A stretch of DNA of 22,065 nucleotides from a virus. The first letter of the stretch is position 1. Every line of letters starts with the position of its first letter. The notes beneath the pieces were generated by a model that saw nothing but the letters and a program-made list of their open reading frames with translations, was not told where the DNA came from and ran no database searches. Made by a program: the position numbers and the translations under genes. Positions 12,002 to 17,051 of this stretch are shown here, piece after piece. The stretch is from IMG/VR virus record IMGVR_UViG_3300036772_000009, positions 1 through 22,065 of that record, one strand, 5' to 3'.

Positions 12002-13081
12002 ATGACTGCCTATTACAACGAAATTGACCCGTTTGCAGCTCAGTGGCTGCGTAACTTAATTGAAGCCGGACAGATAGCACCTGGCTATGTAGACGAAAGG
12101 AGCATTGAGGATGTTACACCAAGCGATTTGCGAGGATTTACCCAGCACCACTTCTTCGCCGGCGTTGGAGTCTGGAGCTACGCATTACGACAGGCAGGAT
12201 GGCCCGACAGCAAACCAATCTGGACAGGTTCATGTCCGTGCCAACCTTTCAGCGCGGCAGGCAAGGGAAATGGGTTTGATGACGAGCGGCACCTTTGGCC
12301 TGCATTCCAGTGGCTCATCAATGAGTGCCAGCCTGAGCACATCCTTGGCGAACAAGTTGCAAGCGGTAACGCAAACGAATGGTTCGACCTTGTACAAACA
12401 GACCTGGAAGGAATGGGATACGCCTTTGGGCTTACGCCGTTTACGGCAGCGAGCATCGGTGCGCCGCACATCAGAGAGCGAGCTTACTGGGTGGCCTACA
12501 CCAACATGCAACACGAACCCGCAGCCGGAAACGCGCCGGGGGTTGCAGAATGTATCTGGAGCAGCGCGATTGGTGGGATGGCAAACGCCGGTGGCGAACG
12601 ATTCTACCGGGTCGACCCACTGCTACAGCGGGAAGAACCTGGACGGCTCCCCGAAGATATGCCTGAAGCTTCCCGGATCGGTATTGCTGACCGGGTGGGT
12701 AACCCCAACATCACGGGACTGGAAAGACTCGTCGGGAATGACAGCGCGGCGGGACGGAAAGGAGCGACTGGACCAGTTACCACGACAGGCATACACAGCA
12801 GGCCCCTTGAGGTTAACGGTTTTTGGCGAGATGCGGACTGGCTCTTTTGTCGAGATGGGCAATGGCGTCCAGTTGAACCCGGCACATTCCCGCTGGTTGC
12901 AAGGTTTGCCAAAAGCCTGGGACACGGCAAGTCCTCATTACGAGCAATGGCAGGACGCAACCGCACAGGGAGACTTAAGGGTTACGGTAACGCCATAAAC
13001 ACCGAGGCAGCCAAAGCATTCATTACGGCTTACATGGAGTGCATGCCATGCGCAAGACCTGGTTTCGCCACCACGATTTAA
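12002..13081 (+). CDS. Orphan DNA cytosine-5 methyltransferase (Dcm type)
   Basis: The 359-residue protein has motif I FFAGVG (51-56), motif IV PCQPFS with catalytic Cys80, a motif VI where the usual ENV is EQV (117-119), motif VIII IRERAY (158-163), a variable target-recognition region, and motif X GYGNAI near 327. It methylates C5 of cytosine, probably to shield phage DNA from host restriction; no endonuclease is nearby. The EQV form is frequent in phage enzymes of this kind. GAGGG lies 4 bases before the ATG. The gene contains a long second-frame ORF (12111-12998), and its end overlaps the next gene by 34 bases. Confidence 0.93.
   Translation: MTAYYNEIDPFAAQWLRNLIEAGQIAPGYVDERSIEDVTPSDLRGFTQHHFFAGVGVWSYALRQAGWPDSKPIWTGSCPCQPFSAAGKGNGFDDERHLWPAFQWLINECQPEHILGEQVASGNANEWFDLVQTDLEGMGYAFGLTPFTAASIGAPHIRERAYWVAYTNMQHEPAAGNAPGVAECIWSSAIGGMANAGGERFYRVDPLLQREEPGRLPEDMPEASRIGIADRVGNPNITGLERLVGNDSAAGRKGATGPVTTTGIHSRPLEVNGFWRDADWLFCRDGQWRPVEPGTFPLVARFAKSLGHGKSSLRAMAGRNRTGRLKGYGNAINTEAAKAFITAYMECMPCARPGFATTI
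12111..12998 (+). CDS. Candidate overlapping gene inside the methyltransferase gene, +1 frame
   Basis: This 295-codon ORF lies wholly inside the methyltransferase gene. AAGGAG (12097-12102) sits 8 bases before its ATG. The product has a Ser-rich N-terminal part, a segment GSTLYKQTWKEWDTPLGLRR then ASVRRTSE, and three GWxTP motifs (at 12489, 12576, 12693) followed by LNPAHSRWLQGLP. I recall many phage proteins annotated with this same layout, so the frame is at least widely conserved. It may be a true dual-coding gene or a conserved by-product of methyltransferase coding. Function is unknown. Confidence 0.4.
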   Translation: MLHQAICEDLPSTTSSPALESGATHYDRQDGPTANQSGQVHVRANLSARQAREMGLMTSGTFGLHSSGSSMSASLSTSLANKLQAVTQTNGSTLYKQTWKEWDTPLGLRRLRQRASVRRTSESELTGWPTPTCNTNPQPETRRGLQNVSGAARLVGWQTPVANDSTGSTHCYSGKNLDGSPKICLKLPGSVLLTGWVTPTSRDWKDSSGMTARRDGKERLDQLPRQAYTAGPLRLTVFGEMRTGSFVEMGNGVQLNPAHSRWLQGLPKAWDTASPHYEQWQDATAQGDLRVTVTP

Positions 13082-16329: not shown

Positions 16330-16475
16330 ATGCAGTAAATCCCCCGCGCATTCACCGCGCATCGTAAAACCCGAAACCATTCACAAAAGCGACCTCTGAG
16401 GACTCCATCGAAGCATGGTGCGATCGGGTGTGGGCGTTCTGGTGAACAGAGGTTTCTTTTTTGAAGGTAATCACC
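16330..16475 (+). other. Intergenic region with long hairpin upstream of the Bro-N gene
   Basis: No gene is seen between the hairpin at 16306 and the ATG at 16476. A direct repeat of CCGCGCAT lies at 16344 and 16355. ACCTCTG (16392-16398) pairs with CAGAGGT (16447-16453) across a 48-base loop and is followed by TTCTTTTTT, so a structured RNA or terminator is possible just before the ribosome binding site (AAGG) of the next gene. Confidence 0.4.
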
Positions 16476-17051
16476 ATGCAATCAGCTCTGACTTTTAAAG
16501 ATCATCATGTTGTGCCGTTTGATAACGGAGACGGAAAGGTATGGTTCACCAGCACTCATATGGCTGAGCTTCTTGAGTATGCGGATGATAAGTCAGTAAA
16601 CAGACTTTATAACCGCAATAAAACTGAATTTAGCTCCGATATGACCAAGGTGGTCACTGTGACCTCTAGTAATAAAAACAATGAGATACAGCATAATCGT
16701 CAAAGAATATTCTCCTCTCGAGGCGCTCATCTGCTCGGAATGTTGGCTGAAACCAAAATTGCTAAAGCACTGCGTCGCTGGCTTTTGGATCTGATTGAAA
16801 AAGAAACACAGCCCAATATGGCGCTGATGGATCTAAGCAATCTGAAAGATGTAGCGCTTGGTGAAATGCAGAACAGAGTCACGAAGGCTAACGAGTGGTC
16901 ACTTGAAACTTTCGGTCGCCCTGGTAGCCAGAGTATGACCATCCGTAAGCGTCACCTGAAGAAAATTCGTGAAGTGGAAAAGGTGATTCGTGAACTATCT
17001 CAACTATCTCTTCCCGACATGGGAGACTTTCCGAGTGGAGACGTAGCATGA
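16476..17051 (+). CDS. Bro-N domain protein, antirepressor-like
   Basis: The ATG at 16476 is chosen; a TTG at 16461 is open upstream. The first 110 residues form a Bro-N domain (VVPFDNGDGKVWFTSTHMAE, then the DKSVNRLYNRN region, and a helix LRRWLLDLIEKE). The C-terminal third is helical and basic (TIRKRHLKKIREVEKVIREL). Bro-N proteins bind DNA and in phages often act as antirepressors or late regulators. Its place in the late region, after the lysis genes, is typical for such extra regulators. It overlaps the next gene by 4 bases. Target unknown. Confidence 0.8.
   Translation: MQSALTFKDHHVVPFDNGDGKVWFTSTHMAELLEYADDKSVNRLYNRNKTEFSSDMTKVVTVTSSNKNNEIQHNRQRIFSSRGAHLLGMLAETKIAKALRRWLLDLIEKETQPNMALMDLSNLKDVALGEMQNRVTKANEWSLETFGRPGSQSMTIRKRHLKKIREVEKVIRELSQLSLPDMGDFPSGDVA

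Follow-up and report, generated by a model that had tools for sequence, protein, structure and literature searches.

Fragments of split C5-cytosine DNA methyltransferases (C5-MTases) are known to assemble, and the small-subunit gene of one two-polypeptide enzyme of this kind, M.EcoHK31I, is reportedly nested in the large-subunit gene in another reading frame. M.EcoHK31I (YGGCCR; Lee, Kam and Shaw 1995, NAR 23:103, as described in PMC3404938) carries motifs I–VIII and X on its large subunit, on which the predicted target-recognition domain (TRD) has also been placed, and motif IX only on the smaller one (PMC3404938). M.AquI (CYCGRG) is a natural two-subunit C5-MTase as well, split in the variable region with motifs IX and X on the second subunit, and the small domain of both M.HhaI and M.HaeIII comprises the variable region together with motif IX (PMC3404938). 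The MTases of the Bacillus phages SPR, SPbeta, phi3T, rho11 and H2 have tandem target-recognition domains (PMC8936443; PMC12707154), and a phage methylase, ShiLan gp65, contains a hidden out-of-frame homing endonuclease ORF (PMC11855218).

The locus described here lies in a virus record with a lambda-like gene order, analysed as a single window of 22,065 nucleotides (IMG/VR record IMGVR_UViG_3300036772_000009, positions 1 to 22,065). An N-type antiterminator, a repressor, O-like and DnaB-like replication genes and NinB are followed by the overlapping genes A and B and then by NinG, Q, lysozyme, terminase and portal genes; between the lysozyme and terminase genes, at 16461–17051, a protein with a BRO-family N-terminal domain (PF02498) is encoded. 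All parts of the A/B locus mapped below are on the plus strand. Gene A (12002–13081, 359 aa), the proposed catalytic subunit of a C5-MTase, matches phrog_363 (E = 5.8e-90) and, over residues 74–171 only, PF00145 (E = 2.5e-15). The PF00145 match and an alignment to M.HhaI (residues 74–170) locate motifs IV, VI and VIII and the PCQ catalytic cysteine, and the similarity to other C5-MTases detected by sequence search spans motif IV to motif VIII. Gene A carries C5-MTase motifs I (FFAGVGVWSYAL, AdoMet binding, 12152–12187), seen by eye in the translation and conserved in the alignment; IV (GSCPCQPFS, with the catalytic cysteine, 12227–12253) and VIII (IGAPHIRERAYWVA, 12455–12496), both from the M.HhaI alignment; and X (GRLKGYGNAI, 12968–12997), which overlaps the end of B and is supported by alignment and by A-frame constraint from ~12947. 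At 12497–12811 the A protein is a nearly unconstrained linker that is always open. Shielding phage DNA from host restriction would be a role fitting an MTase at this map position.

Gene B (12111–12998, 295 aa) is nested in A in the +1 frame and is probably the target-recognition and motif IX subunit. A previous, sequence-only reading had singled it out as a 295-codon ORF wholly within the MTase gene, shifted by +1, with AAGGAG 8 nt 5' of its ATG and three GWxTP motifs. All of this was borne out: the frame has 295 codons plus a stop, the Shine-Dalgarno sequence is at 12097–12102, and the motifs are GWPTP (12489), GWQTP (12576) and GWVTP (12693). The similar phage proteins mentioned in that reading do exist, as PHROG family phrog_1008, which gene B matches with an E value of 1.9e-25. 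No Pfam or NCBIfam domain matched B, searching PDB sequences with the profile of B gave no match, and AlphaFold models of both chains from 19-row alignments (pLDDT 35 and 40) were too poor to use. The DNA that encodes the A linker encodes a row of cassettes in B, namely cassette 1 (GWPTPTCNTNPQPETRRGLQNVSGAARLV, 12489–12575), from a family with 60 members, cassette 2 (GWQTPVANDSTGSTHCYSGKNLDGSPKICLKLPGSVLLT, 12576–12692), from a family with 61 members, and cassette 3 (GWVTPTSRDWKDSSGMTARRDGKERLDQLPRQAYTA, 12693–12800), from a family with 119 members in four slots. Next comes a segment constrained in both frames (12812–12901; VNGFWRDADWLFCRDGQWRPVEPGTFPLVA in A, LTVFGEMRTGSFVEMGNGVQLNPAHSRWLQ in B), with ~0 change at all three codon positions. 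The C-terminal part of B contains a motif IX-like sequence of the form (Q)LNPxHSRWLMGLPxxWD (QLNPAHSRWLQGLPKAWD, 12870–12923), which a profile comparison matched to motif IX in single-chain MTases.

The complementary distribution of motifs extends well beyond the window. Among 365 parsed pairs, the motif IX pattern is present in B in 365 and in A in none, and motif X is in A, downstream, in 350 and in B in one. At the level of motif and profile matches, the split of the predicted MTase motifs between A and B is established, as is the existence of an in-frame single-chain counterpart. The B profile matches the nested subunit of the type found in Paenibacillus phage Leyra over most of its length (99.3%, E = 2.3e-20). 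The Leyra-type subunit in turn matches residues 229–365 of single-chain actinophage MTases, which comprise cassettes and motif IX (96.6%, E = 6.7e-10), and the N-terminal part of these single-chain enzymes matches M.HhaI (E = 2e-24). Compared directly, the profiles of window-type B and the single-chain MTases match at motif IX only (65%, E = 5.9e-5), and the cassette link between them runs via the Leyra-type subunit. Given this two-step profile bridge and the known content of the small domain (PMC3404938), B would be the counterpart of the C5-MTase small domain. Its most likely role is target recognition, as one subunit of a split MTase, and the sequence evidence points to a missing small-domain part of the same methyltransferase rather than a protein that has nothing to do with it.

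Selection at the protein level acts on both frames. The comparison started from 80 relatives that had been retrieved by a frame A query and hence were not selected for B; once near-identical copies had been dropped, the constraint set comprised 64 sequences, window included. With the +1 shift, A position 1 corresponds to B position 3 and A position 3 to B position 2. Before B (12002–12088), differences per site at A positions 1, 2 and 3 are 0.051, 0.055 and 0.328, the pattern of a normal gene. Across the cassettes (12497–12809) they are 0.341, 0.123 and 0.101, the free position being the third of B, and position 1 exceeds position 3 in 32/32 independent, non-overlapping pairs. Both frames are frozen at 12812–12901 (0.028, 0.006 and 0.051), and the A pattern is back from 12947, in motif X and beyond the B stop (0.070, 0.063 and 0.253). 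Changes that are silent in A and alter B have a rate of 3.42 before B that falls to 1.06 in 12227–12493, 0.77 across the cassettes and 0.43 within the frozen segment, and those that alter A and are silent in B (nsA/synB) reach 3.11 in the cassettes, about the speed of silent changes elsewhere. The N-terminal ~40 residues of B are weakly constrained (rate at A position 3, 0.215 vs 0.328 before B). In distant loci, the same test finds position 1 above position 3 across the cassettes in 34/45 pairs, a noisy result, as shuffled cassettes align badly; the 'pre' region of this comparison takes in sequence upstream of the gene. All pair counts vary with the alignment used.

From these region-wise substitution rates, B is constrained over most of its length, and the A protein is almost neutral across the cassettes. 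The dual-coding test finds B to be selected throughout its conserved part and A before 12496, at 12812–12901 and from ~12947; within the cassettes A is selected for openness only, and stops in A there number 0 in 64 sequences vs 3.7 expected per sequence under B-synonymous permutation. The suggestion of a dual-coding locus is therefore upheld by frame-specific constraint, the very check that the sequence-only reading had proposed. Its argument that third-position changes favour the second frame, drawn from repeats within the gene, is replaced by the stronger evidence of the 32 orthologue pairs. Stops or frame breaks in B with A intact, which it had named as grounds for refutation, were looked for, and a truncated B was found in just 1 of ~157 near loci. 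That sole near relative with a premature B stop (L030, 2501–3385, on the same contig as L116) retains 170 residues of B and has an open A. The earlier reader was right about dual coding; the purpose of B, as the putative missing small-domain part, is what the present analysis adds.

Overlaps of the A and B families were found at 499 loci (399 of them distinct) in phages, plasmids and bacterial genomes, mostly via B or A queries, so that these counts give no estimate of how often A occurs without B. The shift is +1 in 499/499. Named carriers include the phages epsilon15, N15, K1ind2, PMG1, PhiXhv-28, Vibrio Fayden, Rhodobacter RcJoli and Erythrobacter ZS04 and, outside phages, a Rhodoplanes plasmid. 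The same layout is present in T4-like KMB43 and in Leyra, whose gp61 and gp62 (L381, 1767–2804 and 1951–2655) are annotated as two overlapping 'DNA methyltransferases', nested at +1, with motif IX in gp62. In one Paenibacillus-type copy (L473, 2311–3078), motif IX is in frame with A and B is truncated, as if an indel had joined the frames. Three distant loci (L292, L294 and L296) were missed by the first B profile and show a B-like +1 frame by eye.

Annotation of these loci is uneven. Both phrog_363 (A) and phrog_1008 (B) are labelled 'DNA methyltransferase'; the families are the same as those described here, but the label is silent on B being nested or a distinct subunit. The 'Mte8-like' ORF in K1ind2 is likewise of these families, and both frames are annotated in a few records. 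For the E. coli matches, the intact record (L506) and the other feature lists name the cytosine methyltransferase frame only. In two E. coli prophages, a gene for an MT-A70 family methyltransferase lies directly 5' of gene A (L506, 1836–2492; L507, 836–1492), and in the second of these, from E. coli 914033, the gene A copy (1489–2658) is disrupted, its annotation listing two partial pseudogenes. No description of this overlap was found in the open-licence papers of the phage literature.

In B proteins, a conserved segment is separated from motif IX by one to five blocks of ~26–40 residues that begin with GWxTP, a count that excludes the hairpin-like segment 'KEWxTPSG'. From 225 parsed B proteins, 611 blocks were obtained, with 30 families of three or more members and 140 different orders, and a single family is found in up to four slots. 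Eight block pairs are at least 80% identical across loci whose catalytic cores are <55% identical, and five of them occupy different slots. This comparison demonstrates that the cassettes have been shuffled, and such sharing across loci and slots is the behaviour expected of exchangeable recognition domains. Position and profile comparison suggest that each cassette is a DNA recognition domain.

We consider it very likely that both subunits of a split C5-cytosine DNA methyltransferase are encoded here in overlapping frames. Frame A would give the catalytic subunit, comprising AdoMet binding, the PCQ nucleophile, motif VIII, a loose linker, the short and conserved FWRDADW segment and motif X, and ribosomes initiating at the Shine-Dalgarno sequence and ATG at 12097–12113 would make the frame B protein. 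B would supply the parts that A is missing, a row of GWxTP cassettes serving as target-recognition domains plus motif IX, and the two chains would assemble into a single enzyme. The A/B complex would presumably form, methylate DNA and protect the phage genome from restriction. Cassette swaps between phages would alter the specificity, and perhaps the number of specificities, with the catalytic core untouched, and each cassette would be kept stop-free in frame A, being a mere linker there. It also seems reasonably probable, if less so, that the recognition subunit of this nested-gene MTase, used by phages of many hosts, is a programmable array of standard cassettes, swapped between phages to alter the methylated sites; each cassette would then specify a recognition module in one of its frames and, in the other, a linker that does no harm, and the swaps would probably match host restriction systems.

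Several other explanations of frame B have to be weighed against this split enzyme. GC-rich DNA and the conserved motifs of A lower the frequency of stops, and B could be regarded as an accidental frame held open by A conservation and base composition. This is extremely unlikely, given that frame B was open in 0/20,000 synonymous-codon permutations of A, which had a mean of 6.6 stops, and that in the cassettes B third positions change freely and A third positions are held in every independent pair; a chance ORF was ruled out by codon permutation and the substitution pattern. The 17 B stops counted were in a sliding-window stretch that extends beyond the end of some B frames. The start of B bears on how the frame is read. 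Its ATG is present in 154/154 near loci. Of the Asp codons of A in this region, the one covering the ATG is GAT in 64/64 sequences, although those at positions 9, 31 and 42 alternate between GAT and GAC. The GGAG of its Shine-Dalgarno sequence is kept in 64/64 relatives via the Arg codons AGG and CGG. Among all 285 distinct loci with a recognisable LSxRQA motif, an ATG with a Shine-Dalgarno sequence lies upstream of the motif in frame B in 253, vs 50 in the third frame. B is thus presumably translated from 12111. Ribosomes might instead, or in addition, shift from frame A into B and produce an A–B fusion, in which motifs I–VIII of A followed by the cassettes and motif IX of B would resemble a single-chain MTase. 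However, such a product would be without motif X, located in frame A past the stop region of B, and B has a conserved ATG and Shine-Dalgarno sequence of its own, with A codons fixed to preserve them, all of which makes a fusion highly improbable.

Nor does a different role for B fare well. A true overlapping gene for a separate protein, such as an anti-restriction or regulatory factor, would fit the lack of a Pfam or NCBIfam domain match and the failure to model the structure of B; it is nevertheless unlikely, since A is without motif IX and B has a motif IX-like segment in every parsed pair, no locus found has B with no trace of the A frame, and nested B-type subunits match the recognition region and motif IX of single-chain MTases. 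To an out-of-frame homing endonuclease we assign almost no probability: the published hidden ORF within the methylase gene of ShiLan gp65 (PMC11855218) is a precedent, but B has no match to HNH or other nucleases in Pfam, PHROGs or NCBIfam, spans the conserved motifs of A rather than being an insertion, is present in essentially all relatives fetched with A, and ends in a motif IX-like segment. A hidden HNH element of the ShiLan domain type was ruled out, the second frame having no nuclease match.

A split C5-MTase read from overlapping frames would have several implications. The gene pair overlaps on the same strand for 885 nt, and this overlap is evolutionarily well supported at hundreds of loci. 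Annotation usually omits one half of the pair, probably the half that sets specificity, and recoding and expressing only the annotated frame of such an MTase would yield an incomplete enzyme. The cassettes make up about 30 shared modules, each with a putative target sequence that could be determined in turn. The locus also illustrates that a stretch of almost neutral linker in one reading frame leaves room for a modular protein in the second, and long overlaps become less paradoxical. If the recognition subunit is a programmable array, the locus would amount to a naturally occurring modular code for methylation specificity, written in two frames.

Compared by description with M.EcoHK31I, the A/B pair shows the same motif split, I–VIII and X versus IX; the predicted TRD of M.EcoHK31I, however, has been placed on its large subunit, whereas in the A/B pair the putative recognition region is assigned by selection and homology to B, as several shuffled cassettes. 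No EcoHK31I-like restriction-modification locus was recognised. M.AquI is likewise a naturally split C5-MTase of two polypeptides, but has motifs IX and X together, whereas here motif X remains with the proposed catalytic chain, and the gene for the second chain is nested. As in the multispecific MTases, recognition modules would be arranged in series, with one to five exchangeable cassettes preceding motif IX and a putative site for each cassette; those of the Bacillus phages are in one chain and one frame, and the array described here belongs to a separate protein read in another frame. In single-chain actinophage MTases such as ShiLan gp70 and Gudmit 58, the order is the same, LLPTP cassettes and motif IX lying between motifs VIII and X, but everything is in one frame and one protein. 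In ShiLan gp70 (L379), Gudmit 58 (L380) and two further loci (L384 and L397), the LLPTP cassettes and motif IX are in frame A. ShiLan and Gudmit also have a +1 frame of 100–245 codons with LLPTP cassettes of its own (MNDTSG...), which overlaps the upstream part and may be a remnant or truncated second subunit. What is new in the A/B locus is that a probable separate motif IX subunit and putative tandem recognition domains are combined in one nested gene, cassette-shuffled, widespread and mostly unannotated.
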